Of a stretch of DNA of 64,000 nt, positions 40,371 through 59,767 are shown piece by piece (positions within the stretch are counted from its first letter, which is position 1; each line of letters opens with the position of its first letter). Both the position numbers and the translations under genes were made by a program. This DNA comes from Marseilla massiliensis (GTDB lineage Bacteria > Bacteroidota > Bacteroidia > Bacteroidales > Bacteroidaceae): the NCBI RefSeq assembly GCF_016899955.1, contig NZ_JACJJL010000020.1, positions 1-64,000 of the forward strand. Reading direction: 5' to 3'. The notes under the pieces were generated by a model. It did no database searches. It was not told the DNA's origin and saw only the letters and a list, made by a program, of their open reading frames with translations.

Positions 40371-43300
40371 ATGAGATACCGTTTCATAATCATTATGGCA
40401 GCTGTGCTGTGTTCCATCCGCGCCATTGCACAGCCGTATTGCGATGTGCGCACGTTTACCATCCGCGACGGGCTTGCTGCCAATATCATATCCGGTTTCA
40501 TGCAGACTCCCGACGGTCTTATGTGGATGTCTACGTGGAACGGGCTTTGTTATTACGATGGCTATCGCTTTGCCACGTTCCGTAATTCGGCCGAGCAAGG
40601 CATGGTGCTGTCCACCAACAGGATTATGCTCATCAAGCCGGGTTCGAAGGGCGATATATGGTGCGGCACGTCCGACCGCCATGTTTACCTGTTCGACACC
40701 CAGGCCAACCGTTTCATCGACGTGACGGACATGATACGCGAGCGTTTCGGCCATGATGTGCCCGTGCGCAGCATCTATCCCTTGGCCAATGGCCATACGT
40801 GGCTTATTAGCAACGACGCCTCGGCGTGCTACCGTGTGAGCGACAGTCTCATCTCAACCGGGGCCGGCATAGAGCAGTTCAGCGTCGACAACGGCACCCT
40901 GCCGAGCAACCTCCTGAGCAAGGTTGAGCTCGACGGGCAGGGGCGCGAGTGGATTTTTTCCGACCGCGGCGTGGCCATGGCCGGTGCCAGGATGCGTTCG
41001 TACATCTCGGCAGAGTATATGGCACAGGCCGGCAACAACCTCTATTTCGCCTCGACCGACGGCCGTCTGTTCCTCTTCGACCCGCGGCATAGGGCCATGC
41101 AGCCTGTGGCCATGCCCCACGGCGTGGTGCGCATCAATGCCGTCGAGCAGCTCGACGGCGGCAACCTGCTGCTGGCCACCAACGTGGGCATAGTGGCCTA
41201 CGACGTGAGGCGGGGCGGCATGAGGGTGCTCAATGTTCAGACGCCGTCGCAGCCGTCGTCCGAGGTCACCTCCATCTACGTCGACCGCAAGCACCGCATC
41301 TGGGCTTTCACCCCTTCGCGAGGCGTGGTGTTGCTCCCCGGCCGCAACTTGTCGCCACGCTGGCTCATGGCCGACGCCGACCGCCCCTTGCACCGCACTA
41401 CCAGCGTGAAGCCTTTTGTTCACGAGGATGCCTACGGCACGGTGTGGGTGGTTCCGGCCGAAGGCACATTCAGCTATTACGATGAGGCCGCCGGCGAGCT
41501 CGTGCCGTATATGCTGAAGACGTCCGACCGCACCGACTCCTACTTGCCGGAGATAAACAAGTTCATGTTTGACAAAGAGGGAAACCTGTGGTTCACGGGC
41601 ACGCGCGACGTCAACCTTGTCAACTTCCGCTATCATCACTTCAAGCTTACGCCCGTGCTCCCGGGGCAGGAGGTGCGCTCGCTGATGTACGACAGCAAGG
41701 GGCGTATATGGGCAGGCACGTACAATGGCCAGCTGGCATTGTTCGATGCCGACCGCCGCCTTGTGGGCTACATGTCGCGCGGTGGCCGCCTTGTCAGCGA
41801 GCCGGTGGCTTTCGCCAACCGCATCTACTCGCTTTTCGAAGACAGCCACGGCGGCGTGTGGGTTGGCACCAAGGGCACCGGGCTCTATGTCATCGACAGC
41901 CTTGGCCGCGTGGAGCATTTCACTGCCAATGCCGCCGACAAGTATTCCATAAGCTATAACGACGTTTACGACATCGATGCCGACAGCAAGGGGCGTATAT
42001 GGGTGGCCACTTATGAGGGTGGCATCAACCTTGTAGACAAGAGCCAGGGCCGCATACGCTTCATCAACCACCGCAACCGTCTGGCCCAATACCCCATGCA
42101 GCAGTTTGCACGCGTGCGCCGCATATCCCACACCGGCCGCGGCGAGATGCTCCTCTCTACCACCAACGGCCTCGTCACGTTCTCCGACCGCTTCAGCCAC
42201 CCCGAGGGCATACGCTTCTATACCACGCCCCAGGTGGTTGGCGACACCACGTCGCTGCTGGCCCCCGACGTGCTGCAGACGCTCATCACGCGCTCTGGCC
42301 GGGTGGTTGTGGTCACCATGGGCGGAGGCTTGCAGCTCGTGGCTTCGCCCAAGTTGCTGGCCGACGGCCTTAAGTTCTGCGACATGAGCGGAGCCAGGCC
42401 CGACGAGGGCGTGGTGCAGTCGGTGGCCGAAGACAACAAAGGCAACCTGTGGATAATGCGCGAGAGCAGCATCGACCGATACAAGCTCGACACAGGCGAA
42501 CTGTTGCGCTACGGGCCGGGCAACATCGGCGACGGTGTGGAGCTGTCAGAGGCCAAGCCCGCCCACTACGCAAAGACCGACTTCATATCCGTTGCGGCCC
42601 GCGGGGGCTTCGTGAGCTTCAACTCCGCCGACCTGAAAAAGAGTTCGTATTGCCCGAACATCATCTTTACCAGGGTGCATTACCACAGCACCAACCGCAT
42701 GGTTTCCATCCTCAACAAAGACGTTCTCGACGTGCCTGCCGACAGCCGCAACCTCACCATCTACTTCGCCGCGCTCGAATACTCCGACAAATACCTCGTG
42801 AGGTATGCCTACAAGATTGAAGGCATCGACGAGAACTGGAACTTTGTGGGCCCGGCCAACAGCGCTTCGTTCAACAGGTTGCCCGCAGGCAAGTTCCGGC
42901 TGCTTGTCAAGAGCACCAACGCCGATGGGGTGTGGAGCGACAATGTGGCCGAACTGGTTATCTACTCTCACCCCACCTTCTGGGAGACCGGGTGGGCCTG
43001 GCTGCTTTACATCGTTCTGTCATGCCTGGTGATATATGTCGCCATCTACATCTATAAGTTGCGGGCCAAGGCCGTGCTCGAGCGCGACCTCAACGACATG
43101 AAGACCAAGTTCTTCACCGAGATAGGCCATAAGCTGCGCACGCCGCTCACGCTTATCGGCGGCCCGGTGGCCGAGGTGCTGGGCGGCGGCGGTCTTACCG
43201 ACACCTCACGGCGGCATCTCGAGATGGTGCAGCGCAATGCCTCGCGCATGCTGGAGCTGGTCAACAAGATGCTTCGTTACAATCTCGACCACCACGTATA

Positions 43301-44177
43301 TATCAGCGACACCAACGCCGGGGTGATGATGGCCGGCAGCGGCGGCGAGACAGCCGTGCCCCATGCCGCCGCCGGTAGCGCAAAGAAGTCGTTGAGGCTG
43401 CTCGTTGTCGAGGACAACGACGACCTACGGGCTTTCCTCGTGGGCATACTCAGCAGCGACTATACCGTGATACAGGCCGACAACGGGCAGAGCGGACTCG
43501 AGGCCGCCGAGGCGCAGATGCCCGACTTCATTGTTACCGACGTCATGATGCCGGTAATGGACGGGCTGACCATGGTGCACAAGATAAAGCAGAACAAGGA
43601 TATTTGCCACATCCCAATCATTGTTCTGTCGGCCAAGGCGTCGCTCGACGACCGCTTGCAGGGATTGCGCGAGGGCATCGACGACTACATAACCAAGCCT
43701 TTCAGTGCCACATACCTCAAGATGCGTGTGCAGAACATCATCAGTCAGCGGCGCATGCTGCAGCAACTCTACGTAGAGCAGCTTGATCCTAAGAACAAGG
43801 ACACATACAGGTTGGAGTCGCCGCAGATTGTCGATGCAGACAAGGAGATGATGAAGCAACTCATGGTTTACCTCGAAGAGAACATCAGCAACCCGGAGAT
43901 AAAGATTGAAGACCTGGCCTCTTCCGTCAATCTGAGCCGCTCGGTGTTCTATGGAAAGATAAAGAGCATTGTAGGCATGGCACCTGTCGACTTTGTGAAG
44001 CACATCAGGATTCTGCGTGCCGAAGAGATGATTGTAAAGAGCGATTATTCGTTTTCGCAGATTGCTTATGCCGTGGGATTCTCCGACCCTAAGTATTTCA
44101 GCAAGTGCTTCAAGAAGGAAACCGGCATGACCCCGTCTGAATATCGCGACAGGGCCGAGTCGGGCGACAACACGTAG
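40371..44177 (+). CDS. Hybrid two-component regulator lacking the HATPase_c domain
   Basis: A 1268-residue HTCS-type sensor/regulator. A signal peptide (to about 22) leads to a periplasmic two-bladed-propeller sensor built of repeated WxGT-type blades (for example KGRIWAGTYNGQLALFD, GVWVGTKGTGLYVID), then a Y_Y_Y domain (about 780-865). The transmembrane helix is at about 873-897. The dimerisation/phosphoacceptor helix follows with H920 in FFTEIGHKLRTPLTLIGGP. A receiver domain begins at about 1008, with acidic pocket EDNDD and phosphoacceptor D1057 in VTDVMMPVMDG, and an AraC-type DNA-binding domain fills about 1160-1262. Between the H-box helices (ending near 975) and the receiver there are only some 30 Gly/Ala-rich residues, so the roughly 110-residue ATPase domain is missing. 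It probably controls the pectin locus that converges on it. Confidence 0.93.
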   Translation: MRYRFIIIMAAVLCSIRAIAQPYCDVRTFTIRDGLAANIISGFMQTPDGLMWMSTWNGLCYYDGYRFATFRNSAEQGMVLSTNRIMLIKPGSKGDIWCGTSDRHVYLFDTQANRFIDVTDMIRERFGHDVPVRSIYPLANGHTWLISNDASACYRVSDSLISTGAGIEQFSVDNGTLPSNLLSKVELDGQGREWIFSDRGVAMAGARMRSYISAEYMAQAGNNLYFASTDGRLFLFDPRHRAMQPVAMPHGVVRINAVEQLDGGNLLLATNVGIVAYDVRRGGMRVLNVQTPSQPSSEVTSIYVDRKHRIWAFTPSRGVVLLPGRNLSPRWLMADADRPLHRTTSVKPFVHEDAYGTVWVVPAEGTFSYYDEAAGELVPYMLKTSDRTDSYLPEINKFMFDKEGNLWFTGTRDVNLVNFRYHHFKLTPVLPGQEVRSLMYDSKGRIWAGTYNGQLALFDADRRLVGYMSRGGRLVSEPVAFANRIYSLFEDSHGGVWVGTKGTGLYVIDSLGRVEHFTANAADKYSISYNDVYDIDADSKGRIWVATYEGGINLVDKSQGRIRFINHRNRLAQYPMQQFARVRRISHTGRGEMLLSTTNGLVTFSDRFSHPEGIRFYTTPQVVGDTTSLLAPDVLQTLITRSGRVVVVTMGGGLQLVASPKLLADGLKFCDMSGARPDEGVVQSVAEDNKGNLWIMRESSIDRYKLDTGELLRYGPGNIGDGVELSEAKPAHYAKTDFISVAARGGFVSFNSADLKKSSYCPNIIFTRVHYHSTNRMVSILNKDVLDVPADSRNLTIYFAALEYSDKYLVRYAYKIEGIDENWNFVGPANSASFNRLPAGKFRLLVKSTNADGVWSDNVAELVIYSHPTFWETGWAWLLYIVLSCLVIYVAIYIYKLRAKAVLERDLNDMKTKFFTEIGHKLRTPLTLIGGPVAEVLGGGGLTDTSRRHLEMVQRNASRMLELVNKMLRYNLDHHVYISDTNAGVMMAGSGGETAVPHAAAGSAKKSLRLLVVEDNDDLRAFLVGILSSDYTVIQADNGQSGLEAAEAQMPDFIVTDVMMPVMDGLTMVHKIKQNKDICHIPIIVLSAKASLDDRLQGLREGIDDYITKPFSATYLKMRVQNIISQRRMLQQLYVEQLDPKNKDTYRLESPQIVDADKEMMKQLMVYLEENISNPEIKIEDLASSVNLSRSVFYGKIKSIVGMAPVDFVKHIRILRAEEMIVKSDYSFSQIAYAVGFSDPKYFSKCFKKETGMTPSEYRDRAESGDNT

Positions 44178-45563: not shown

Positions 45564-47108
45564 TTATTTTACTGTCAGGTTGGTCACGTTGTTATACTTC
45601 TTTATGGCCTTGCCGTCGGCGGCGGTTATCTTCACGCCGTCGAGAGTCAGCCCGTCGGTATAGTTGAGTATTGCACCCTCCTGCGCCTTGAACGTAGAGC
45701 GGCTTATCTTGATGTCCTTGATGGGCATCTCGGGCAGCCCGTTCATGTAGATGGCTCGCTTGGCCCCGTTGCACGTCACTCCCTCAACGCTTATGTTGCG
45801 GAAGCTCGGTGTGGTCTCGTCGACAGCCGGTATGGGTGCCGCCGTCTGGTTGCCGCCCTTGCCGGCAACCTCGAGCGGGGCCTTGCCTCCGTAGTACAGG
45901 TCGAAGGTGATGGCGTCGCCGGGTATGTCGGCCATGCCGATGTTGCGTATGAATATATCCTCGACGGTGCCCCCGCGGCCTCGTGTCGACTTGAATCTCA
46001 GGCCGGTGTCGGTGCCGATGAACAGGCAGTTGTCTACCATTATGTTGCGTGCGCCGCCCGACATCTCGCTGCCTATCACGAAGCCGCCGTGGCCGTGGTA
46101 CACCCGGCAGTCGCGTATCACCACGTTCTGGGTGGGCATGGCGCGCTTGCGGCCCTCTTCGTCGCGTCCCGACTTTATGCACATGGCGTCGTCGCCCACG
46201 TCAAACGAGCAGCCCGTCACCACCACGTTGCTGCACGACTCGATGTCGAGCCCGTCGCCGTTTTGCGAGTACCACGGGTTGCGTATGGTCACGTTGCGCA
46301 CAGTCAGGTCTTCGCACATCAGCGGGTGTACGTTCCATGCCGGCGAGTTTTCAAACGTTGCGTCTTCCAGCAGCACCCGCTTGCAACCTATGAACGAGAG
46401 CAGGGCAGGCCTCAGATAGTCGTGCAGTTCCTGCCATGCCTCGTCGGTGTTCTCGCTGTAGGCCCGTTGGTAGTATTTGTCCCTGTCGGCGTCTATGTCG
46501 CGTATTTGTTCCGTTGGATACCACACGTCGCCTTTCTTGTTGAGTGCCCCGCCTTTGCACAGTGCCTTCCACTGCCCATCGGTCATCTTGCCGCGCTTCA
46601 CCGGTCGCCAGCTCTGTCCGTTGCCGTTGAACACGCCTGTGCCGGTGATGGCTATGTTCTCTGCGTTTACGGCCGTCAGCGGCGACATGCAGCGGCGCAT
46701 CCTCACCCCTTCAAAGTAAGAGTCTACGAGCGGGTAGTCGGCCCTGTTGGGCGAGAAGAGCACCAGGGCGCCCTCCTCAAGGTGTAGCTCGGTGTTGCTT
46801 TTCAGTTCTATGGGCCCGGTGAGCCACACCCCTCGGGCCACCGTCAGCCGTCCGCCGCCGCGTTGTGCCAGGGCGGCAATGGCCTTCCTGAAAGCCTCGG
46901 TGTTCATTGTGGTTCCGTCGGCCACTCCTCCGAAGTCGGTGAGCCTTACTTCATAGTCGGGTATTTTCGGTTCAGCAACGGCCCTCATCTCAAAGGGCAA
47001 GTCGTTGTAGTCGGTGGCTGCGCCGTCGGCCTTTTGTGCCGTGGCGGTCAGCAGCGATGCCAGCCCCACGGTGGCCATAGCCACCATTCTCGTTATTCTG
47101 TTCATCAT
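45564..47108 (-). CDS. GH28 polygalacturonase
   Basis: A 514-residue exported GH28 enzyme that hydrolyses alpha-1,4-linked galacturonate in pectin. A signal peptide ends near TATAQ (residue 25). The right-handed beta-helix shows the family signatures NPWYSQNGDGLDIESC, DVGDDAMCIKSGRD (catalytic Asp pair), YHGHGGFVIGSEMSGG (catalytic His) and RFKSTRGRGG. The exo- or endo-mode cannot be read from sequence; long N-terminal regions of this sort are frequent in exo-acting bacterial enzymes. It is the last gene of the leftward pectin operon, 350 bp after the GH3 gene. Confidence 0.95.
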   Translation of the reverse strand: MMNRITRMVAMATVGLASLLTATAQKADGAATDYNDLPFEMRAVAEPKIPDYEVRLTDFGGVADGTTMNTEAFRKAIAALAQRGGGRLTVARGVWLTGPIELKSNTELHLEEGALVLFSPNRADYPLVDSYFEGVRMRRCMSPLTAVNAENIAITGTGVFNGNGQSWRPVKRGKMTDGQWKALCKGGALNKKGDVWYPTEQIRDIDADRDKYYQRAYSENTDEAWQELHDYLRPALLSFIGCKRVLLEDATFENSPAWNVHPLMCEDLTVRNVTIRNPWYSQNGDGLDIESCSNVVVTGCSFDVGDDAMCIKSGRDEEGRKRAMPTQNVVIRDCRVYHGHGGFVIGSEMSGGARNIMVDNCLFIGTDTGLRFKSTRGRGGTVEDIFIRNIGMADIPGDAITFDLYYGGKAPLEVAGKGGNQTAAPIPAVDETTPSFRNISVEGVTCNGAKRAIYMNGLPEMPIKDIKISRSTFKAQEGAILNYTDGLTLDGVKITAADGKAIKKYNNVTNLTVK

Positions 47109-47458: not shown

Positions 47459-50035
47459 TCAGTCGATGGTTACCTGTATCTTCTGCAAGTCTTTGTCAGC
47501 GCTCGACGTGCCAACCATCAGTTCGTAGTTGCCCGGAACCACCCTCATGGTGTTGGTGGCGGCGTCCCATCCTTCAAAGCTCTCGCGCGGGAAGTCTATG
47601 GCCACGGCCTTGGTCTCGCCGGCTTTCAGCTCCACCCGGCAGAATCCGCGCAGCGTCTTGGCCGGCCCTTCGGTGTCGGCCGTGTTGCGCATGTAAGCCT
47701 GCACCACTTCGGTGCCGTCGCGCCGGCCGGTGTTGGTGACGCTCACCGTTATCTTGCCTGCCTTCTTGTCGTATTCGGGCTTGCCCAGTTCAAACTCGGT
47801 GTAGCTCATGCCGAAGCCAAAGGGGAATAGCGGCTCGCCGCCGAAATACCTGTATGTGCGGCCCTTCATCGAGTAGTCGTCGAACGGCGGCAGCTGGCTG
47901 TCGTCGCGGTAGAAGGTCACAGGCAGCTTCCCGCCCGGGTTGTAGTCGCCAAAGAGCACGTCGGCCACGGCGTGTCCGCCCTGTTCGCCGGCATACCAGG
48001 CCTGCAGTATGGCGTAGCACGTCTCGGTCTCGGGAGTCAGAGCCACCGCGCTGCCGCTGCAGTTCACCAGCACAATCTTCTTGCCGGCCTCGTGCAGCGC
48101 CTTCAGTATGTCGCGTTGTGCCTGCGGCAGTTCAATGCTCGTGCGGTCGCCGTTGTCAAAGCCGGGCTTGTTGACCTTGGCTTCCTCGCGTTCCAGGTCG
48201 GGCGAGATGCCGCCTACGAATATCACCACGTCGGCGTCGGCGGCCTTTGCCACCACCTCTGCCGGCGTAGTCGGCTCTATGGTCTCTACGTTAAACTGCA
48301 GCGTGGCGCCGTCGGCCAGTTGCATGTAGTCGAGTTGTATGTCATACTTCTGCCCGGCCTTCACTTTCAACTCCCTCTTGTTGTTCCTCATCTCCTCGGC
48401 CATCCATCGGTTGGCCACGGTGTCGCCGTTGACAATCAGGCGTATGCCGTCGTCGTTGACATAGTTGATGAACACCCGTCCGTCTTGCCTTGCCGTGAAC
48501 GAACCGCGGAAGCTGGCCGTGAAGTTGGTGAGCTCAACGCCCGGAGCAAAAGCCGTGTTGCCCCCGTTGTCGAATTGCAGCGCGCTTGTGTAGCGTGTTT
48601 CCACCACAGGCTTGCCCTCCATGCGGGTGTTGTTCCAGAATCGCGCCTCCATGCCCGGCTTCCCGTCGGGTGTGACAAAGTCGCCGAACAGGCTCCGGGT
48701 GTCGGTTATCTCGGTAATCTCGCATCCCTTGGCATATTTCACCTTGGTGCCGAGCTTGGCCTCGATGCCCTCCATCACCGTCACCGTGTGGGCCGGCTGC
48801 CCGAAGTAAATGCCCCACATCATCACCGAGTCGGCGGCGTTGGGGCCCATCACCATTATTCGGCCGGCGTCTTTGTCGAGTGGCAGCAGATTGCCGCGGT
48901 TTTGCAGCAGCACCATCTGCTCGCGCGCCATCTGCAGCGCCAGTTGCTTGTGGGCGTCGCAGTTCACCACGCTTTCGGGTATCTTTGTCCACTCCACGAG
49001 CGAGTCGGGGTCGAGTTCGCCGAGCTCAAAGCGCGCCTTCAGCAACCGCTTCACGCTCACGTTTATTTGCTCCTCGCTTATCTCGCCGGCCCTGACGGCC
49101 TCGGGCAGACTCTTGTAGTTGCTGCCGCACTCCACGTCGGTGCCGCTGATCACGGCTTTGGCCGACGCCGCCGCCGCGTCTTTCGACACACCGTGGCGTC
49201 CGGGGCGCCAGAAGTCGCCTATGGCCCCGCAGTCGCTGACCACCAGTCCGTCGAATCCCCACTGGTCGCGCAGTATCTGTTGCAGCAGCCTGTTGCTGCC
49301 GCAGCACGGCTCTCCCTCAAATCTCTGGTAGGCGCACATCACTTCCTGCACCCCGGCTTTCTGCACAAGGTCTTTGAACGCGGGCAGGTAGGTCTCCCAG
49401 AGGTCGCGCGGCGATAGCGACTCAATGTCGAGGCTGTGCCTGGTCTTTTCCGGGCCGCTGTGCACAGCGAAGTGTTTGGCGCAGGCAAGCAGCTTGCGGT
49501 ATTTGTGGCCCTCGGGCCCTTGCAGTCCGCGCACCACGGCCTGGCCCATCCTTGAGTTCATGTATGGGTCTTCGCCATACGACTCTTGGCCGCGCCCCCA
49601 GCGCGGGTCGCGGAATATGTTTATTGTCGGGGTCCAGAACGAAAGGCCCTGGTATTTGCCCACCTTGCCTTTGCGCTTCTGTGCGGTGTTCTTTGCCCGG
49701 GCCTCGTCGCTTATGGCCGAGTAGATGCGTTCGAGCAGTTCGTCGTCGAACGATGCTGCCATGCCGATGCACGAGGGGAACGTTGTCGACAGGCCGTTGC
49801 GCCCTACGCCGTGCAAAGCCTCGCTCCACCAGTCGAACTGCGGTATGCCCAAGCGTGGTATGGCAGGCGAGCCGTTCATCATCAGCTTGGCCTTCTCGTC
49901 GAGGGTTAGCCTGCCCAGCAGGTCTTCGGCGCGCTGCTCGGCCGGCAGGTCGGCATTCTGGTAAGGCAGGTTTTGTGCTGCCGCCCCCGCAGAGCACATC
50001 ACGATGATGGATAAGAGCAGATTGCTTCTTTTCAT
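47459..50035 (-). CDS. GH3 glycosidase with inserted PA14 domain (beta-xylosidase/glucosidase type)
   Basis: An 858-residue exported GH3 enzyme. A signal peptide ends at AAAQ (residue 21). The N-terminal barrel has WWSEALHGVGRNG and the nucleophile D268 in GLVVSDCGAIGDF. In the second domain a PA14-like module (about 460-583, MEARFWNN... INYVNDDGIRLIVNGD) interrupts the fold just before the AADADVVIFVGG strand. FnIII-like C-terminal sequence (GTEVVQAYMRNT) ends the protein. The LHGVGR and SDCGAI patterns resemble Prevotella xylan 1,4-beta-xylosidases, but GH3 specificity is not readable with certainty. It lies 34 bp after the next GH3 gene, in one operon. Confidence 0.93.
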   Translation of the reverse strand: MKRSNLLLSIIVMCSAGAAAQNLPYQNADLPAEQRAEDLLGRLTLDEKAKLMMNGSPAIPRLGIPQFDWWSEALHGVGRNGLSTTFPSCIGMAASFDDELLERIYSAISDEARAKNTAQKRKGKVGKYQGLSFWTPTINIFRDPRWGRGQESYGEDPYMNSRMGQAVVRGLQGPEGHKYRKLLACAKHFAVHSGPEKTRHSLDIESLSPRDLWETYLPAFKDLVQKAGVQEVMCAYQRFEGEPCCGSNRLLQQILRDQWGFDGLVVSDCGAIGDFWRPGRHGVSKDAAAASAKAVISGTDVECGSNYKSLPEAVRAGEISEEQINVSVKRLLKARFELGELDPDSLVEWTKIPESVVNCDAHKQLALQMAREQMVLLQNRGNLLPLDKDAGRIMVMGPNAADSVMMWGIYFGQPAHTVTVMEGIEAKLGTKVKYAKGCEITEITDTRSLFGDFVTPDGKPGMEARFWNNTRMEGKPVVETRYTSALQFDNGGNTAFAPGVELTNFTASFRGSFTARQDGRVFINYVNDDGIRLIVNGDTVANRWMAEEMRNNKRELKVKAGQKYDIQLDYMQLADGATLQFNVETIEPTTPAEVVAKAADADVVIFVGGISPDLEREEAKVNKPGFDNGDRTSIELPQAQRDILKALHEAGKKIVLVNCSGSAVALTPETETCYAILQAWYAGEQGGHAVADVLFGDYNPGGKLPVTFYRDDSQLPPFDDYSMKGRTYRYFGGEPLFPFGFGMSYTEFELGKPEYDKKAGKITVSVTNTGRRDGTEVVQAYMRNTADTEGPAKTLRGFCRVELKAGETKAVAIDFPRESFEGWDAATNTMRVVPGNYELMVGTSSADKDLQKIQVTID

Positions 50036-50069
50036 GTTGTTGTAGTTTTAGAGTTGTTCTATGATTCGT

Positions 50070-52817
50070 TTATTTGTTGTTTACGGCCACTTTCTCGCCG
50101 TTTATCACATATATACCGGCCGGAAGTGCGCCTAAGTTGTCGGCTGTGCCGAGGCAGGTGCCTTGCGGCGTGTACACCCTGTCGCCCTTGAGCGAAGGGT
50201 TGCGCATGGCGTTCTCTATGCCGCTGGTAGTGCTTTTGTATGTGGTCTTCACCGTGGCGCCCTCGGTTGTGATTTTGTCTTTGAGCCTTATGTCGGCCGA
50301 ACTTGCACCTATGAGCACGTCGACAGTGCCGTCTTCCACGTCAAACGTGTTGGTGAGGTCGTTGAAATAGGCCAGCTGGTCGTGGTGCAGCACAAACCTT
50401 ACGGGCTTGGTCTCGCCCGGTTCGAGCTCAACCCGGGCAAACCCCTTGAGCTCCTTCAGCGGCCTTTCTATCTCCGATTGTGCGTGGGTGTATAGCTGCA
50501 CTATCTCGGTGCCGGCCACTTTGCCCGTGTTTGTGATGTTGGCCGTGACGACCACGCTGTCGCCCGCGTCGAGTCTGTTGGTGCTGAGCGCCATGTCGCT
50601 GTAGCCGAACGTGGTGTAGCTCAGTCCGAAACCAAACGGGTAGAGAGGTTCTTTGTCGTGGTACATATATGTATACTTGGCTTTCCTGATGTCGTATTGC
50701 AGCATGTCCGCAAGCAGGTCGGATTCAGAGGCATACCATGTCGATGTCAGCTTGCCGCCCGGGTTGTAGTCGCCGAAGAGCACATCGGCAATGGCCTTGC
50801 CCTGCGCCTGGCCACCGTACCAAGCCTCGACTATGGCCGGCACATGCTCTTGCGCCCAGTTTACTGTCACCGACGAGCACGTCTGCAGCAGGAGCACCAC
50901 GTTGGGGTTGGCCTCGTAGACGGCTTCGAGCAACTGTTGCTGATCGCCTGGCAGCGACAGCGAGGTGCGGTCGTTGCTCTCGTCGGACACTTCGAGGTTG
51001 GTGCCGGCCGCAAACACAACCACGTCGGCCTTGCGTGCTATCTCGACGGCGCGCTCTATGTTGGTTTCCGCCTTCCCTGTTACGGCGCAGCCTTTGTAGA
51101 AGTAGAGCGGGCCTTGGGTCTCGAGCGGGTTGTCGTCGCCCTCGTTGTAGAACTTCACCCAGTCCATGTTGGCGCAATACTTGTCGCCTCCGCCGAAGAC
51201 GAGGTACAGTTTGTGGGTTCCTTTGAACAGGGCCGGGTCGACATCGGCCGTCGTTGTGGCGTATTTTGCCCAGTCGCCCGTGGTGGCAAGCGTCACGGTG
51301 GCAGCCGGTTTGCCATCGATGCGGTCGAGGTAGAGCTCTACCGTGGTGGCAAGGTCGTTTTCTGCCCCCGAGTAAATGTCGACCTTCGAGCAGCCGTCGC
51401 CGAAGTTGACGTCGTCAAACGAAATCCAGTCGCCGGCATATATGTATCCCACATTGCCCGAACTGCCGTTGGCCTCTATGCTCAGCCGCTTCGAAGAGCT
51501 TGGCACGCTGCTGCCCGTGAAGTCTTCACACTGTATCGTTCCGTCGCTTATGGTGTAGCCTATCTTCTCGGCAATGCCCTCCAGCGGGCTTGTCACTTCA
51601 ACCGGCGAGCCGCTGTAACCGCCCAGGCTGACGGTGTTGCCGAGCGGCCCGATGACGGCAATGCTCTTGTCTTTGGCGAGCGGAAGAAACGAGTTGTCGT
51701 TTTTCAGCAGCACTATCGACTCGCGTGCAGCCCGGTGGGCCAGGTCGATGTGCTCCTGGCACTCGAGCTCGCTTTCCGAAATGCTGCTCCACGGCAGCAG
51801 CGCGGCATCGTCAAACTCGCCCACCGAGAACCTTGCTTCAAACACCCGGGTGAGTGCCGAGTCGAGGTCGGCCTCGGTCATGTAGCCTTTTTCTATTGCC
51901 TCTTTGCAGTAATCCTGGAACGTGGTGCCGCAGTTGAGGTCTTCGCCATTGCGCATCGACACGCCGGAGGCTTCGGCCAGGGTGGCCACATAGTGGTGCT
52001 TGTTGTACACATCCTCCACCGCGCCGCAGTCGCTCGTCACGAATCCGTCGAATCCCCATTCGCCCCGGAGTATGTCGATGAGCAGTTCGTGGTTGGCTCC
52101 GCACGGTATGCCGTTGAGGGCGTTGTATGCGCTCATCACCGAGCGCACGTTGCCTTCTTTCACCGCCGTCTCGAATGCCGGCAGGTAGTATTCGCGCAGG
52201 TTGCGCGCGTCGACGTCCGACGAGGTGCTGTGCCGCCCTTTTTCATAGTTGTTGGCGGCGAAATGCTTTGCCGTGGCCACGGTCTTGTAGTATTTGGGGT
52301 GGTCGCCCTGCATGCCGCGTATGTATTCCACTGCGATGCGGCCTGTGAGGTAGGGGTCTTCACCGTAGTTCTCTTCGTCGCGCCCCCACCGCGGGTCACG
52401 GCTCATGTTTATCGTTGGGCACCAGTAGATGAGCCCTTTCTGCTTTGTGTTGTAATATATCCGTGCCTCGTCCGACGTGGCTGAGGCGCAGTCGAAGATG
52501 AGGGGCAGGTCCCATGTGCTCGACATGGCCTTCGACGACGGGAAAGACGTGGCTTTGCCCGAGCGCGCCACGCCGTGCAGGGCCTCGTTCCAATAGTTGT
52601 AGCCCTTCACCCCCAGGCGGGTGATGTCGAGCGTCTGGTGGCCAACCTGGTTGATTTTCTCGTCGAGGGTGAGCAGCGACACAAGGTTCTTGGCACGCTC
52701 GTGGAAGCTCAGCTCCGGGTTTTGAAACGGGTATTCATATACTTGTGATGCTACCGGGGCGGCTATCATGGCCGATGCCGCCGTGACGATTGCAAATATG
52801 ACATGGTTCTTTTTCAT
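50070..52817 (-). CDS. GH3 glycosidase with inserted CBM6-like module and C-terminal tail (beta-xylosidase type)
   Basis: A 915-residue exported GH3 enzyme with a signal peptide (to about VASQ). The barrel contains YNYWNEALHGVARSG and nucleophile D263 in GFVTSDCGAVEDV. A CBM6-like beta-sandwich (about 428-556, IQCEDF... GNVGYIYAGDWISFDDVNFG... MDWVKFYNEG) is inserted at the point where the neighbouring GH3 carries PA14. A FnIII-like domain (TEIVQLYTHAQ) follows, then a linker and a tail ending LPAGIYVINGEKVAVNNK, of the type shared by other secreted enzymes here. The substrate is probably xylosyl or arabinosyl, by family resemblance. Confidence 0.93.
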   Translation of the reverse strand: MKKNHVIFAIVTAASAMIAAPVASQVYEYPFQNPELSFHERAKNLVSLLTLDEKINQVGHQTLDITRLGVKGYNYWNEALHGVARSGKATSFPSSKAMSSTWDLPLIFDCASATSDEARIYYNTKQKGLIYWCPTINMSRDPRWGRDEENYGEDPYLTGRIAVEYIRGMQGDHPKYYKTVATAKHFAANNYEKGRHSTSSDVDARNLREYYLPAFETAVKEGNVRSVMSAYNALNGIPCGANHELLIDILRGEWGFDGFVTSDCGAVEDVYNKHHYVATLAEASGVSMRNGEDLNCGTTFQDYCKEAIEKGYMTEADLDSALTRVFEARFSVGEFDDAALLPWSSISESELECQEHIDLAHRAARESIVLLKNDNSFLPLAKDKSIAVIGPLGNTVSLGGYSGSPVEVTSPLEGIAEKIGYTISDGTIQCEDFTGSSVPSSSKRLSIEANGSSGNVGYIYAGDWISFDDVNFGDGCSKVDIYSGAENDLATTVELYLDRIDGKPAATVTLATTGDWAKYATTTADVDPALFKGTHKLYLVFGGGDKYCANMDWVKFYNEGDDNPLETQGPLYFYKGCAVTGKAETNIERAVEIARKADVVVFAAGTNLEVSDESNDRTSLSLPGDQQQLLEAVYEANPNVVLLLQTCSSVTVNWAQEHVPAIVEAWYGGQAQGKAIADVLFGDYNPGGKLTSTWYASESDLLADMLQYDIRKAKYTYMYHDKEPLYPFGFGLSYTTFGYSDMALSTNRLDAGDSVVVTANITNTGKVAGTEIVQLYTHAQSEIERPLKELKGFARVELEPGETKPVRFVLHHDQLAYFNDLTNTFDVEDGTVDVLIGASSADIRLKDKITTEGATVKTTYKSTTSGIENAMRNPSLKGDRVYTPQGTCLGTADNLGALPAGIYVINGEKVAVNNK

Positions 52818-53005
52818 TGCCGTTATTTTGTTTTAGGATTTTATTCCACTCTTTTCAGGATTGTCGTGCTGCCAGCGCCGGGGTGGCTTCAAGGCCCTTC
52901 GCTGTTGGCCAAGCCAAGCCCCGTGGTTGGTATAGTGACGGTGATGAGGCTTGTAACGCCGGCCGCGGCCCAGCCACATCCGGGCGATGAACGCCGGCCG
53001 GCGAC

Positions 53006-54682
53006 TCAGAGATACTGCCTGTAGGCATAGAGGCCTATCATGGTGCCTGTAAACCCGCCTGCACGCTGGCTTACAAACGACGCGTCGACACCCTTGGCTG
53101 CCGTCTGCCACGTTGCGCCTCCGTCGGTCGAGAAGCTGAACTCATAGTTGTCGCCCAGGCATTTGGTGCGCAGCATGACGCTTTTCGTTTCACTGTCCAC
53201 GCCGACCGAGGCTATGGTCGAGGTGCTCCGTCCCTTGTCGCTGCGCTCAACCACAATCATGCCGCGGCGCAGTCCAAAGCGGTAGTAGCGCTGTTCGTTC
53301 TTGAATACAGCCATGCCCGCCTGGGCACCGGGGTAGGGCAGGAAATCGAGCTTGGTCTCGGCGGTGAACTTGTGGTGCTGTATGCGCCTCAGGAGCATGG
53401 GCGGCGTGCGCCTGTCTTGAGGCAACACTTCGTCGGGCACTATGTCCAGCCTTCCCCCGACCATGCTCGCGTAGGCGTCGGCAGGGCCCAGCAGCGAGAG
53501 CCATTCGGGCCCGGCGTGCCGGCCATCGAAATCGTCGCGCCATGTGAAGTTGCCGAACGTGACGCCTTCGCGGCGCTCTGTGCCGTTGCGGCGCAGCATC
53601 AGCGGCACGGTGTCTTTCTCTTGGGTGATGTAAGGGAAGCCGTCGAGGCTCCAGTTCACGGGCATCAAGAACGTTTCGCGGCCCAGTTGCTCAACGCCGC
53701 CGGGGCCCGGACGGCAACCCAGGAACACGGCCCACCATTCGCCGTTGGGTGTCTGCACTATGTCGGCATGGCCAGTGCAGGTAACCGGGTTGGTGCGCCC
53801 CGCTTTCAGTTCGCGCTGCGTGAGCATCGGGTTGCGGCTCCAGCGGGTGTAAGGGCCAAACACAGAGTCGGCCCTGTAGGCCACTTCCGAGTGGAATATG
53901 CCGGTGCCGCCTTCGGCGCAGATGATGTAGTACTTGCCGTCGATTTTATATATGTGCGGGCCTTCGTTGCGTGCCAGGCGCTCCTCGGGGCCCACGCCCG
54001 CTTCGCGGAACTTGACCGGTGCACCCGTGGTCTGGCCCGTAGCGCGGTCAAACCGTGCTATGCGCAGGCAGCGGTGGTTGCTCCACTTGGGCTGCCCTTC
54101 GGTAGACTCCTTGTATATGATATAGGCCTTGCTGTCGTCGTCGAAGAAGAACGCCGGGTCGATGCCGTCGATGGCTGGCAGCCATACGGGGTCGCTCCAG
54201 TCGTTGTTCATTGGGTTTTTGGTTGTGACGTAGAAGTGGCCGCGCCCCACATCGGTGGTAAGCATGTAGTAAGTGCCGGTCTGCGGGTCGAAACTAATGT
54301 TGGGTGCATAGATGCCCCCCTTGCCCACGTCTTGTCCGGCAAGCGCAGGCAGTTGTGACGGGCGGTTGAGCACATTGCCCACGAGCGTCCAGTTGACAAG
54401 GTCGCGGCTGTGGTAGAGCGGCACCCCGGGAAAGTAGCCGAACGTGGAATTGACAAGCCAGTAGTCGTCGCCGACACGGCAAATGGCAGGGTCGGGGTGG
54501 AAGCCGGGGATTATGGGATTGTAGAACGATGCCTTGTCGGCCAGCGGATTCTGTCGGTAATAATCGTCGTCGCCGGTATAAGTGAAGTAGTCGAACGAGG
54601 CTTTTGCCCCTTCGCCGCTCCCGCTGGCACCGACAGAGACTGCCATCAGCAGCATGTTGGCTATGAGAAGTTTTCTTATCAT
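53006..54682 (-). CDS. GH43 beta-xylosidase/alpha-arabinofuranosidase
   Basis: A 558-residue exported GH43 enzyme. A signal peptide (to about residue 20) precedes the five-bladed propeller starting NPIIPGFHPDPAICRVGDDYW (general base Asp in HPDP). The second Asp is in GIDPAFFFDDDSKAYIIY and the acid Glu in NEGPHIYKIDGKYYII. A C-terminal concanavalin-like beta-xylosidase domain (about 370-555, FTWRDDFDGRHAGPEW) completes the usual two-domain layout. It acts on beta-xylosyl or alpha-arabinofuranosyl ends. It is the first gene of the GH43-GH3-GH3-GH28 run; a TAACTTTG box lies 130 bp upstream. Confidence 0.94.
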   Translation of the reverse strand: MIRKLLIANMLLMAVSVGASGSGEGAKASFDYFTYTGDDDYYRQNPLADKASFYNPIIPGFHPDPAICRVGDDYWLVNSTFGYFPGVPLYHSRDLVNWTLVGNVLNRPSQLPALAGQDVGKGGIYAPNISFDPQTGTYYMLTTDVGRGHFYVTTKNPMNNDWSDPVWLPAIDGIDPAFFFDDDSKAYIIYKESTEGQPKWSNHRCLRIARFDRATGQTTGAPVKFREAGVGPEERLARNEGPHIYKIDGKYYIICAEGGTGIFHSEVAYRADSVFGPYTRWSRNPMLTQRELKAGRTNPVTCTGHADIVQTPNGEWWAVFLGCRPGPGGVEQLGRETFLMPVNWSLDGFPYITQEKDTVPLMLRRNGTERREGVTFGNFTWRDDFDGRHAGPEWLSLLGPADAYASMVGGRLDIVPDEVLPQDRRTPPMLLRRIQHHKFTAETKLDFLPYPGAQAGMAVFKNEQRYYRFGLRRGMIVVERSDKGRSTSTIASVGVDSETKSVMLRTKCLGDNYEFSFSTDGGATWQTAAKGVDASFVSQRAGGFTGTMIGLYAYRQYL

Positions 54683-55403: not shown

Positions 55404-57119
55404 CTATTTCACCACAACCTTCTTGCCTTTGTGGATATATATGCCCTTTGCCAGGCCGTCATAGTCTTCCATTGTGGCATTTTGCTTGGCTATGGTGCCG
55501 TTTAGGAAGTAGATGTTGTTGTCGGTATTGGCGTTTGCCCCATACTGGCTTGCGTTTGTGTCCTCAATGCCGGTGATGCTTGTCGTGCCGTCTTCATATA
55601 TGATGTAGCCCATCTGCGTTCCGCCGGCATTCTGGTTGATGGTGGTAATGTTGACAAGGCTGTTGAGGTAGCGTTCAAGGTTGGTGTAACCGTCGGCACC
55701 GACCTCGTTTCCATCGTCAGGGTTTGACGGGTCGAGGCCGTTGAAGTCTTCCCACTGGTCGCTGATGCCGTCGTTGTCGAGGTCGGCCGGTGCGTTGGCC
55801 GTGGCGAGCACGGGCCATCCGCCGCAGTCATCCTGGCTGTTGATGAAGCCTTGGTCACAGTTCCTGCCGGTGAATGTGGCCAGGCCTTCCCTTGCATCGT
55901 TGACAAGGATGATGTCAAGGGCGTCGCGCGAGCTTTCAGTGCGCCTGCATCCCGCATACTTGAGCACACGGTCGAAGGCATCCTCTGCAGAGTGGGTGGT
56001 CACGGCAACAAAGTCGATGGGCTCGTTGATGCGCATGGTGTCGCGAGTGGCTTGGGTGTAAGTGTTGTCAACCCCGCTGCCGTTGGTTATCTGGTTATAC
56101 ATGCCGTAGGTCCAGTTGTCGTTGGTCACGTCGTCATATTTGGAGTTGACGTTGCCGTCGACATAGAACTTTCCCCATACGTGCCACATCTTGTCCCACT
56201 CGTTGGGGCTGTCGGTGTTGTGGCCGGTGTACTCTGACGTCCTGATGCCTATGCCGGCAATCCTGCGCTGTATGGTTTCGCTTCTGTTCTCGGTTGCGGG
56301 CCCCGGCTTGTAGTAGTTGTTGACTATGTTCACGTTCATGCCCTCACCACCGTAGCAGCCGTTGCCACCCCAGTTGTAAATCACGTTGTTGCGCATGTCC
56401 ATGCGCTCGTCGGTCTGTGTGCTCGGGCGCGGGCCGAGACGCGGTGTGCGCGAGGTGTGGTGAATTACCAGGTTGTGGTGGTAAGACGCCCCGCTGCCTC
56501 CCCAGTTGCCTCCGTAGCCGTGGCTACCCTTGGAGTGGCCTGCATTGACCATGCTCTGGGCGGCAATGCACCATTGTACGGTGAGGTTTCGGCTGCCGTA
56601 TACCGACAGGCACTCGTCGACACTCCAGCTTACGGAGCAGTGGTCGATGATGACATCCTTGAGGTCCATGCCGCCGAGGCCGTCGCCCTCATGCTCGTCG
56701 ACATGGCGGTTGCCGCAGCGGAAGCGCATGTAGCGTATTATGACATTGTCGGCACCGATGGAAAAAGGATAGTCGGCAATGCATATTCCGCCACCGGGCG
56801 AGGTCTGGCCGGCAATGGTCACGTCGCCGTTGTTGAGCCTAAGCGGAGATGTCAGGTAGATGGTGCCCGACACATCGAAGATGATGGTGCGCGGCCCTTT
56901 CTGATTGCATGCCCAGCGGAACGAGCCCTCCTCGTCGGTATCCTCGAGTGTGGTGACATGGTAGACAGTGCCGCCGCGCCCACCTGTAGTATAGCGGCCG
57001 AAGCCCTCGGCGCCGGGAAAAGCCAGTTGCTTCTCTTTGCTTTCGGCCATGGCATCTGTCGAGAATGATGTGCCGAGCATGAGCGACAGAGCGCCCAAAG
57101 TGAGTAGTCTGAATTTCAT
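55404..57119 (-). CDS. PL1 pectate lyase with C-terminal sorting tail
   Basis: A 571-residue exported polysaccharide lyase family 1 enzyme that cleaves homogalacturonan by beta-elimination. A signal peptide (about 1-25) leads to FPGAEGFGRYTTGGRGGTVYHVTTL, the usual start of Bacteroidetes PL1. The beta-helix has DVSGTIYL, IIDHCSVSWSVDE and the catalytic Arg region VIHHTSRTPRLGPRP. Near 440-480 is an acidic EF-hand-like calcium segment (DLDNDGISDQWEDFNG...DPDDGNE type), then a Ser/Thr-rich linker and a tail ending GLAKGIYIHKGKKVVVK. A TAACTTTG box lies 44 bp upstream. Confidence 0.95.
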   Translation of the reverse strand: MKFRLLTLGALSLMLGTSFSTDAMAESKEKQLAFPGAEGFGRYTTGGRGGTVYHVTTLEDTDEEGSFRWACNQKGPRTIIFDVSGTIYLTSPLRLNNGDVTIAGQTSPGGGICIADYPFSIGADNVIIRYMRFRCGNRHVDEHEGDGLGGMDLKDVIIDHCSVSWSVDECLSVYGSRNLTVQWCIAAQSMVNAGHSKGSHGYGGNWGGSGASYHHNLVIHHTSRTPRLGPRPSTQTDERMDMRNNVIYNWGGNGCYGGEGMNVNIVNNYYKPGPATENRSETIQRRIAGIGIRTSEYTGHNTDSPNEWDKMWHVWGKFYVDGNVNSKYDDVTNDNWTYGMYNQITNGSGVDNTYTQATRDTMRINEPIDFVAVTTHSAEDAFDRVLKYAGCRRTESSRDALDIILVNDAREGLATFTGRNCDQGFINSQDDCGGWPVLATANAPADLDNDGISDQWEDFNGLDPSNPDDGNEVGADGYTNLERYLNSLVNITTINQNAGGTQMGYIIYEDGTTSITGIEDTNASQYGANANTDNNIYFLNGTIAKQNATMEDYDGLAKGIYIHKGKKVVVK

Positions 57120-57427: not shown

Positions 57428-59674
57428 TTACTTCACCATGAATTTCTTGCCATTCTGGATGATGAGGCCCTTGGTGCCCTTGGCAACCTTCATGCCCATC
57501 ACATTGTACATCGGAGCGTTCTCGTCGAACTGCTGTTCGTCGGCAGTCACTTCCTCGATGCCGTCGCTCACTGAGCTGGTGTCGCCGGTGATGAGTATGC
57601 TGCCCATGTACTCGAATGCGTCTTGGGTGATGTAAACATCCCAGATAACCTCGCCAGTCTCAGGATTCCACATGCCAATGCTCTCGTCGGGAGTCACAAC
57701 GGGGCCTCCGGCAATGTCGCCTATGACGCGTACGTATACCTTGTCCTTGTCGTTGGCCTCGGCAGGCAGTGTGGCCTTGAGGTTGCCCCATACGAGGTTT
57801 TCAATCTCTATTCTGCCAACCTCTGTCCATGTGGTGCTGTCGGTAGAGAACTCAAGCTTCTGAATCTTGGCAGCGTTGTTGTCTGTTCCAACGTAGCAAG
57901 AGAAGGTGATGTCCTTTATGCCCTTTGTCGGGATGACGAACAGAGCGTAGTTGCGCTGTGTCTCCTTTGCACCAGACCATGTGCGGCGAGAGAGGATAGG
58001 CATCTGGAGTTCGGCATCGTCCTCGCCAAACTTGCCCGGGCGCGACTCGAAGAATCCGTTTACATAGGTGAATGGAGCTTCTTTGCTGCCTGTAGCCTCG
58101 GTTGTATCGTTGACGATGGCATATACGGTGCTCTGGTAAGCGGGATCCATGTTGAGGTAAACGTCGGCAGAGTATGACTCAGGCTTGCCGTTTGATGTGA
58201 TGTCCTTCAGGGTGAAGGCTGACAGCACTTCGCTGTTCTCGGTGAACTTGGCCGTGAGGTTGAGGTCGCCGTCGAGCGTGAATGTGCGCGTGAGCTCTTT
58301 CGTTCCATCTTCCCAGCCTTCAAACGTGTTGAGGTTGTCGATGTAGTGAGAGGTCTGCGGGTCAACCGTAACGGTGATTTCGTCGCCTACATAGTATACA
58401 TCTTTCTCGGGCGAGATAGAGTAAGTGATGTACGATGGGCCGTCAATGTTGACATTTACTGAAGCCGGTGTCGGGAACTCGTCGACGTAAGCTATCGACG
58501 GGCCAATGTAGTAAGTGCCGCCATTATTCTTGTAGTCGTAGCCGGCCGTCTTCCAAGGATTGCTGTTCAGGATGTAGTACATGTTCTTTGAAGCGTCCTG
58601 GAATGTGCCGCCCGTTGTCCATGTGAAGTCAGCGAAGTCGGCAAGGGTCATGTCGCCTCCCATAGGCATGGCTGCACTTCTGCATTCGTTGAGAAGATAG
58701 GTGGAAAGGTCTGTCAGTGACCTGTACGTCTCATTGTCGATGACGTTGTTGTTTGTAATGACATAACCGTCCTCGATGTTGGTTATCTTCGTGTCTGTGT
58801 AGAAGCTGTTCTCGTCTTTGAGGAGGGTGTAGCCTTCAGACGGGCCTACGAACAGGTTGTTGTAAATGTTAAGCGAAGAGCCTGTTCCAATGTTTCCGGC
58901 TGCGCCCAGCACCGTGAAACCTTGCGGGTGCATCACCTTGTTCTCGCCCAACAATACAAAGTTGTTGGCGAATGTAACGGTCGTGGCAGTCTCCGTCCTG
59001 TTTCGTGTCTCCCACAGACCTTTGGTATACGGCATGTCGTAGAACATGTTGTCGGTGATGTTGAACGCTTTTACGGGCATGAAGGTACGGAATACCGACC
59101 AGTTGTCGCCGCTGCTCTGGGCTGTCTGGTGTATCTTGCATTCCTTTACTTCGATGCATGCGATAGCCATGTCGGCCCCGGTGAGCCCTGTCGCGCTCTT
59201 GTCGCCGTCGAAGCGGAGTATAGAGCGGGCCTGTCCGTGGATGTCGCACCGTGTCAGCGAGATGGTGTCGGCAAAGAGGTCGCGGCGGTTGTCGATGAGG
59301 TAGCTGCCGGTTCCCACGAGGTTGAGGTTCTTGAAGAAGACAGACATGCGCTTGCCTTCCTCTGCCGATGGTGCATCGGCAGACCACTCAAATGCCAACT
59401 GCAGTTGAGGCATATTGTCGAAATCGGTCTCGTTGCTGCGGATGACGAGCTTTCCTTTGGTCATGGTTGGCTTCAGCTTGCCAACGTTGACAAGAGTGCC
59501 AGCGTCCCAGTTGCAGACGATTTCGTAAGTGTCGCCTTCCATGCCGGAGCCAATGAGATTGAACGCGTCCTTAAATTCAGAGGAGTTGGTCACCTCTTTC
59601 GTCCAGCTTTCGGCAAACGATGTAGCCGGTGCCATGGTCATGGCAGCCAGAGCTAATAAAGTAAGTTTTTTCAT
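57428..59674 (-). CDS. Secreted beta-helix-like protein of a pectin locus (DUF4957/DUF5123-like)
   Basis: A 748-residue exported protein in the third position after susC and susD, where surface glycan-binding proteins usually lie. A type I signal peptide ends near SFAES (residue 23), with no lipobox. Residues 30-380 look like a right-handed beta-helix (FFKNLNLVGTGSYLIDNR, DIHGQARSILRF, KAFNITDNMFYDMPYTKG, NIYNNLFVGPSEGY). An InlB-type repeat (about 420-480, YYVGDEITVTVDPQTSHYIDNLNTFEGWEDG) follows, then a beta-sandwich and a tail ending TKGLIIQNGKKFMVK. It resembles DUF4957/DUF5123 proteins of Bacteroides pectin loci. It may bind pectin or be a divergent lyase; no catalytic residue is identified. 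Confidence 0.8.
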   Translation of the reverse strand: MKKLTLLALAAMTMAPATSFAESWTKEVTNSSEFKDAFNLIGSGMEGDTYEIVCNWDAGTLVNVGKLKPTMTKGKLVIRSNETDFDNMPQLQLAFEWSADAPSAEEGKRMSVFFKNLNLVGTGSYLIDNRRDLFADTISLTRCDIHGQARSILRFDGDKSATGLTGADMAIACIEVKECKIHQTAQSSGDNWSVFRTFMPVKAFNITDNMFYDMPYTKGLWETRNRTETATTVTFANNFVLLGENKVMHPQGFTVLGAAGNIGTGSSLNIYNNLFVGPSEGYTLLKDENSFYTDTKITNIEDGYVITNNNVIDNETYRSLTDLSTYLLNECRSAAMPMGGDMTLADFADFTWTTGGTFQDASKNMYYILNSNPWKTAGYDYKNNGGTYYIGPSIAYVDEFPTPASVNVNIDGPSYITYSISPEKDVYYVGDEITVTVDPQTSHYIDNLNTFEGWEDGTKELTRTFTLDGDLNLTAKFTENSEVLSAFTLKDITSNGKPESYSADVYLNMDPAYQSTVYAIVNDTTEATGSKEAPFTYVNGFFESRPGKFGEDDAELQMPILSRRTWSGAKETQRNYALFVIPTKGIKDITFSCYVGTDNNAAKIQKLEFSTDSTTWTEVGRIEIENLVWGNLKATLPAEANDKDKVYVRVIGDIAGGPVVTPDESIGMWNPETGEVIWDVYITQDAFEYMGSILITGDTSSVSDGIEEVTADEQQFDENAPMYNVMGMKVAKGTKGLIIQNGKKFMVK

Positions 59675-59767
59675 CGCTTTGATTTTTTAGTTGGTTGTTA
59701 ATAATGTTGATTGTCTTTTATTTGTCGGTACATGGGCCCCCACACCATGTTGGCAGGGCAGGGGGCC

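Follow-up and report, generated by a model that had tools for sequence, protein, structure and literature searches.

A hybrid two-component regulator of Marseilla massiliensis without a HATPase_c domain that keeps its HisKA domain, receiver and DNA-binding lock

Hybrid two-component systems (HTCSs) of Bacteroides, such as that of the homogalacturonan locus BT4108-24 of B. thetaiotaomicron, combine a Reg_prop/Y_Y_Y sensor, a transmembrane (TM) segment, HisKA, a receiver and an AraC helix-turn-helix (HTH) domain in one chain and have pectin-type neighbours (PMC3243724, PMC11253607); 'most' of them are described as carrying all cytoplasmic domains (PMC3243724). In these regulators, DNA binding is reported to be repressed as long as the receiver is unphosphorylated, through an S/CHIP loop in the receiver and two residues, Asp and Lys, in the DNA-binding domain (Gao, Wu and Stock, PMC11253607). 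Here, we describe a regulator encoded in a stretch of 64,000 nucleotides of the Marseilla massiliensis genome (contig NZ_JACJJL010000020.1, positions 1 to 64,000; hereafter the window). It shares all the above elements, including the lock, but has no HATPase_c domain, and the Glu following the phospho-acceptor His (position H+1) is replaced by Lys; the B. thetaiotaomicron proteins were likened to it by their description. It appears to be a variant of the HTCS kind, for which we propose a specific mechanism.

Several other systems resemble this protein in part. DivL of Caulobacter is a histidine kinase relative that has lost kinase activity and binds a phosphorylated receiver; it is described as being without both kinase and phosphatase activities and as reading a separate regulator (PMC4211667), whereas the protein described below carries its receiver in its own chain and has lost the CA (catalytic and ATP-binding) domain altogether. 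In the CA-truncated ChrS of Corynebacterium glutamicum, a sensor kinase has also lost its ATPase domain with a regulatory outcome, but this is a laboratory-evolution mutation in a separate kinase (PMC9491836) and not a natural, selected hybrid protein. Isolated DHp (dimerisation and histidine-phosphotransfer) domains of EnvZ or NtrB, likewise without CA, are said to be sufficient for phosphatase activity, and their expression, according to work cited there, leads to a constitutive phosphatase phenotype (PMC3510030); those are untethered laboratory constructs, whereas the DHp considered here is natural and tethered to a receiver and a sensor. In the HisKA proteins tested, the acid at H+1 is required for the kinase and not for the phosphatase activity, and the Thr/Asn at H+4 shows the reverse (Willett and Kirby, PMC3510030).

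The features of the protein are listed below with the evidence for each; the counts refer to the proteins with a HATPase domain (full) and without it (HATPase-less) of the comparison set described further on.

40371..44177, plus strand: HATPase-less hybrid regulator, 1268 aa, ATG start (open reading frame list; Pfam domains).
42780..42962, plus strand: Y_Y_Y domain, residues 804-864, at the end of the periplasmic sensor (Pfam PF07495).
42990..43187, plus strand: TM segment and DHp alpha1 as one continuous helix, residues 874-939 (AlphaFold model of residues 871-1268; TM placed by eye).
43098..43280, plus strand: HisKA/DHp, residues 910-970 (Pfam PF00512, 36.1 bits, cut-off 26.9).
43128..43130, plus strand: H920, phospho-acceptor His (His in 52/53 HATPase-less and 29/29 full proteins).
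43131..43133, plus strand: K921, the H+1 position (Glu in 29/29 full proteins; Lys 34, Gln 9, Arg 6, Asn 3 and Asp 1 in the 53 HATPase-less ones).
43140..43142, plus strand: T924, the H+4 position tied to phosphatase activity in PMC3510030 (Thr in 53/53 HATPase-less and 29/29 full proteins).
43281..43400, plus strand: linker of ~40 residues (971-1010) at the HATPase_c site (Pfam-blank; predicted local distance difference test score, pLDDT, mostly <50; dN/dS 0.325).
43401..43730, plus strand: receiver, residues 1011-1120 (Pfam PF00072, E 5.7e-24; Foldseek matches to solved receivers).
43539..43541, plus strand: D1057, phospho-acceptor of the receiver (Asp in 53/53 HATPase-less proteins).
43605..43616, plus strand: CHIP motif, residues 1079-1082 (C1079-P1082), receiver half of the inhibitory lock between receiver and DNA-binding domain (placed by transferring the BT4124 offsets to the full HTCS L031 and its alignment; PMC11253607).
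43839..43841, plus strand: D1157, DNA-binding-domain half of the lock (same BT4124-offset placement via L031).
43914..44153, plus strand: AraC-type HTH (HTH_18), residues 1182-1261 (Pfam PF12833, E 1e-20).
43956..43958, plus strand: K1196, recognition-helix Lys of the lock (Lys in 52/53 HATPase-less and 8/16 receiver-less proteins).

The earlier note on this DNA, made from the letters alone, had read the gene as a hybrid regulator with H920 and D1057 intact and in frame and with about 30 Gly/Ala-rich residues standing in for HATPase_c. Both residues lie where it had placed them, and the short segment is the linker 971-1010; the gap between HisKA and the receiver is ~40 residues here and ~200 in full-length relatives. 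The replacement of Glu by Lys at position 921 had been missed. A Pfam search of the 1268-aa protein gave six Reg_prop stretches in the sensor part and no match to HATPase_c at a max_evalue of 1, a setting at which the HMMER filters drop most matches above ~0.1. A divergent ATPase domain elsewhere in the protein, one of two possibilities that the note had named as speaking against its claim, was not found with a purpose-built HATPase hidden Markov model (HMM) either; this model is imperfect and recovers 15 of the 21 HATPase loci (L001-L021) of the same genome. No ATPase fold is visible in the AlphaFold model of residues 871-1268, in which the pLDDT is <50 across residues 973-1005. The same genome gives 21 HATPase_c matches elsewhere, and thus the domain is detected there when it is present.

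The source genome is deposited in 128 contigs, and an assembly or sequencing deletion, which the note had also raised, could be imagined. It is rejected here: the domain is absent at the same place in relatives 75, 74 and 74% identical from other assemblies, and since 51 relatives of the same clade also lack HATPase_c, this explanation is ruled out for practical purposes and its probability is negligible.

These relatives come from surveys of the genus and the family (398 and 399 genomes), in which two candidates were scored per genome and the per-genome counts are lower bounds. In the genus survey, 77 of the 398 genomes gave a match at E<=1e-80. The comparison set, with proteins classed at the residue level, comprises 99 sequences, namely, 62 of the 89 distinct genes of the genus search, ten other relatives and 27 loci of the family-wide search (L163, one of 28 newly cut loci, was dropped because of an internal stop); the remaining genes of the genus search are known by coverage and frame length. 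Outside the set are L028 (a further one-component form), L038-L043 and L045, as well as the repeat loci L023-L025, L029 and L030. According to the purpose-built HMM, 29 of the 99 proteins have a HATPase domain, 53 have none but keep HisKA and the receiver, and 17 are without all three. A Pfam search of the 53 HATPase-less C-terminal parts did not return HATPase_c among the 25 commonest of the 68 families. Without the outlier L143, the HATPase-less set amounts to 52 proteins from 51 genomes: that of M. massiliensis, 42 of the genus search and eight of the family search, three of which belong to another genus, g32.

On trees based on the sensor columns alone (95 and 94 rows), one branch with a support of 100 separates the 29 full proteins from the rest. 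Both are quick LG+G4 trees from which the long or distant rows L146, L044, L143 and L145 were left out, and L127 was also left out of the second one. Apparently, HATPase_c was lost in frame, and once, in the ancestor of a Prevotella-centred clade; we infer descent from full-length HTCSs, that is, a loss and not a gain of the domain. The distant relative L143 (6144-10019) is also HATPase-less, keeps His-Asp in its H-box and is the only one of the 53 proteins with an Asp at H+1. Its long branch is placed with those of full HTCSs; it probably represents an independent loss of HATPase_c and could still be phosphorylated in trans.

The H-box reads HELRTP in all 29 full HTCSs. In the clade of 52 proteins, the phospho-His is kept in 51 (Asn in L130), and Arg at +3, Thr at +4 and Pro at +5 are present in every one. 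The H+1 position is occupied by Lys (34), Gln (9), Arg (6) or Asn (3) and is acidic in 0/52; parsimony requires 10 changes over the tree at this position. The sequence pattern of a phosphatase-only HisKA, with the Thr at H+4 kept and the acid at H+1 lost, is therefore present throughout the clade. The earlier conclusion that the protein cannot phosphorylate itself is supported by the missing ATPase domain and strengthened by the loss of the acid; self-phosphorylation would be very unlikely. Twenty-seven DHp columns are invariant in full HTCSs, of which 12 are kept at >=95% in the clade, 10 are kept partly (columns 918, 919, 959 and 972 among them) and five in under half of the proteins. The last are 921 (H+1), 966, 969, 971 and 973; apart from 921, they are situated at the end of alpha2, adjoining the former position of the CA domain. 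In the receiver, 22 of 26 such columns are kept at >=95%, and in the HTH, 10 of 11. The acidic pair, the phospho-Asp, the Ser/Thr and the Lys of the receiver are intact in all 53 HATPase-less proteins. As for the features characteristic of HTCSs, the protein has the Reg_prop/Y_Y_Y sensor, HisKA with its His, an intact receiver and the AraC HTH with the lock, and it is without HATPase_c and the acidic residue beside the phospho-His.

The complete S/CHIP-DK lock was found in this protein, in 47/53 of the HATPase-less proteins and in 22/29 of the full HTCSs. The lock Lys is present in only 8/16 of the receiver-less proteins (Fisher p 1.2e-5 against the HATPase-less set, uncorrected for kinship). 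Thus, the lock persists in proteins that have a receiver and drifts in those that have lost it. The receiver-HTH half of the protein matches the PDB chain 12aw_A ('hybrid two-component system protein') with 319.5 bits.

Selection was estimated as the ratio of nonsynonymous to synonymous rates (dN/dS). Pooled over seven close HATPase-less pairs, it is 0.101 in the sensor, 0.035 in the DHp, 0.325 in the linker, 0.033 in the receiver, 0.227 in the hinge and 0.027 in the HTH. For the sensor, DHp, receiver, hinge and HTH of three full-HTCS pairs with few changes, the values are 0.075, 0.011, 0.080, 0.283 and 0.008, respectively; their 'linker' columns include the HATPase domain, and the value is no control for the linker. 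The DHp and the receiver are under purifying selection. A decaying regulator, that is, a non-functional remnant, would agree with the internal stop seen in three HATPase-less rows (G252:C30, G393:C12, G101:C4) and with the relative L127 ending after its TM helix; however, pooled dN/dS values of ~0.03 in the DHp, receiver and HTH and the presence of the form in 51 genomes make decay highly improbable. For the clade, the selection result opposes the pseudogene reading, and judged by it, the gene is conserved and functional, not broken.

Building on the domain loss, its place in one clade, the pattern of kept and lost residues and the selection, all of which are read from the sequences, we lean towards a kinase-excised HTCS, in which the receiver is charged from outside and discharged under the control of the sensor, gating the AraC domain. 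We regard this as a serious possibility, if still short of probable. The receiver would continue to gate the AraC domain by phosphorylation, and the phosphoryl group would presumably come from outside, with either acetyl phosphate or a promiscuous kinase from a different system as the donor. The sensor would act through the DHp helices, the remaining transmitter, which are without the kinase-only residue and have the residue of the putative phosphatase activity. Most likely, the pectin signal would then set the rate of dephosphorylation (or the shielding) of the tethered receiver and not its rate of phosphorylation. External charging with sensor-controlled discharge is favoured because of the described roles of H+1 and H+4 and the phosphatase activity of DHp fragments (PMC3510030). 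Genes of the acetate kinase and phosphotransacetylase families are present in the genome.

The earlier note had left the choice between another kinase, a small phosphodonor and conformation undecided. The data narrow it: phosphorylation of the receiver is favoured over conformation alone because the active site of the receiver and the lock released by phosphorylation are kept, and phosphorylation of H920 by another kinase is disfavoured because the acid required on the acceptor helix is gone. Purely conformational signalling is the main rival. The sensor would move the dimeric rod of the DHp and reposition the receiver and the AraC domain, with no role for phosphorylation. Two observations speak for it: in the AlphaFold model, the TM segment and alpha1 are one helix, and at least four sub-lineages have lost both the DHp and the receiver, so that their sensor presumably acts without phosphate. 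On the other hand, if the receiver were no more than a scaffold, nothing would keep it from losing its active site and lock; yet the active site is complete in 53/53 proteins, the receiver and the DNA-binding domain are under selection of similar strength, and the lock is complete in 47/53. We consider conformation alone rather unlikely.

In the one-component forms just mentioned, the TM helix is joined almost directly to the AraC domain. When the tree is rooted on the full side, they are nested in the HATPase-less clade with at least four separate losses. A single origin of these forms was rejected by the approximately unbiased test (p-AU 1.75e-49, quick LG+G4 tree), for which the group was named after the tree had been seen. 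The genome of M. massiliensis contains 13 Y_Y_Y open reading frames (ORFs): eight with HATPase according to the HMM, the protein considered here, three AraC-like ones without kinase parts, and one with an internal stop. The three one-component Y_Y_Y-TM-AraC-like paralogues are L075, L085 and L086 (C40:253252, C95:128800 and C32:96987; ends by eye). SusR-type one-component membrane regulators, too, connect a sensor in the periplasm with an HTH in the cytoplasm and have no kinase. The eroded sister forms resemble this type, whereas the protein considered here differs from it in keeping the DHp and the receiver. L127 (6351-9110), one of the 17 proteins without HATPase, HisKA and receiver, also has no HTH; it ends just after the TM helix, no HTH was seen in the 1.6 kb viewed, and it might be either a truncated gene or a sensor that serves a different role.

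The receiver could also be charged by another kinase, a full HTCS or some other histidine kinase, in which case the DHp would only dock or present the receiver. The kinase-receiver specificity of HTCSs is called promiscuous, since tethering insulates the pairs (PMC11253607), and a strain with a ChrS pseudokinase is described as driven by the paralogous kinase HrrS (PMC9491836); eight of the 13 Y_Y_Y ORFs of the genome carry HATPase_c. However, no partner kinase was found by the HATPase HMM in the flanks fetched for the HATPase-less loci (ORFs >=150 aa, up to ~9 kb a side, shorter at contig ends and ~1.5 kb for L147-L154), although with its recovery of 15/21 known loci a divergent one could escape. 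H920 itself would be a disfavoured acceptor, as the acid at H+1 is missing. We consider charging of this kind unlikely.

Several observations weigh against external charging with sensor-controlled discharge. The DHp retains 12 of its 27 full-invariant columns at >=95%, compared with 22/26 in the receiver and 10/11 in the HTH, and its dN/dS of 0.035 against 0.011 in full HTCSs indicates that it is somewhat relaxed, though far from neutral. These ratios, obtained by the Nei-Gojobori method, are rough, and in some pairs silent sites are saturated. The retention of T924 may reflect only a need of the fold; Thr is invariant in full HTCSs too. Six HATPase-less proteins are without the full lock (L121, L125, L126, L130, L150 and L154); four of them form an early-branching group, L150 and L154 are outside that tree, and L130 has also lost the phospho-His. 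Nor is the lock universal in full HTCSs (22/29). The sensors of several sub-lineages evidently work without any phospho-domain, and conformation can suffice. ChrS, which we take to belong to another DHp family, is a further case. In its CA-truncated form, no phosphatase function appeared to be left, and activation of the response regulator came from a second kinase (PMC9491836).

Downstream of the regulator, on the opposite strand, lie genes of GH28, two GH3, GH43, a PelZ-like protein, two proteins without matches and a SusC-family gene. The glycoside hydrolase and PelZ-like genes are as follows.

45564..47108, minus strand: GH28 (polygalacturonase family) neighbour (Pfam PF00295).
47459..54682, minus strand: GH3, GH3 with CBM6, and GH43 genes (Pfam).
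55404..57119, minus strand: pectate lyase PelZ-like protein (NCBIfam NF041900, E 6.4e-36, 124.1 bits, cut-off 840; Pfam-blank at 1e-4).

The pectin-locus context assumed from the letters thus finds support in GH28, two GH3, GH43 and the weak PelZ-like match, and the neighbours support a pectin-type locus; pectin itself would be the presumed signal. At 57428-61633, the locus encodes two large proteins, of 748 and 621 aa, that gave no Pfam match at 1e-4 and no NCBIfam match at 0.1. The full HTCS L032 of Bacteroides faecis is also adjoined by a GH28-like gene, 50% identical. The upstream genes, labelled by eye, are taken to be genes of glycogen metabolism. At least one of them is present at 13 of the 41 HATPase-less loci with flanks (L056, L087-L126), a count limited by contig ends.

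Some peculiarities of the relatives can be noted. A VYISD string is situated at 43296-43310, right after the DHp, and its Y, I and D, at the former place of the ATPase domain, are common to 37, 41 and 43 of the 52 clade members; in full HTCSs, a VEFILxD-like string comes after the HATPase domain, and a comparison of the two strings by eye is suggestive only. L122 (5617-9510) and L123 (5451-9347) share a similar Pro/Gly-rich in-frame linker string at the HATPase_c site, as if a small repeat element had been inserted. The sensors of L100 (6467-10375) and L101 (6056-9973) are nearly identical, while their cytoplasmic halves have diverged and silent sites are saturated, which looks like a mosaic of sensor and output produced by recombination.

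No title or abstract opening found in the open-licence literature treats HTCSs without HATPase_c. It is possible, though we put this forward more tentatively than the mechanism itself, that the clade represents a natural class in which the excision of a domain converted a histidine kinase into a phosphatase that acts, under the control of the sensor, on the receiver tethered to it. Metabolic phosphate (acetyl phosphate), gated by the sugar signal, would then switch the pectin genes, and the class would stand midway along a path, taken repeatedly, that leads from two-component to one-component signalling. The interconversion of two- and one-component systems is usually argued from distant families, whereas here one sensor family seems to hold the series: complete HTCSs, kinase-less HTCSs with a selected DHp and receiver, and one-component forms running from TM helix to HTH. 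The residues kept and lost allow a direct test of whether the sensor works by dephosphorylation alone. Finally, caution is needed, as kinase activity should not be assigned to every gene annotated as an HTCS in Prevotella.

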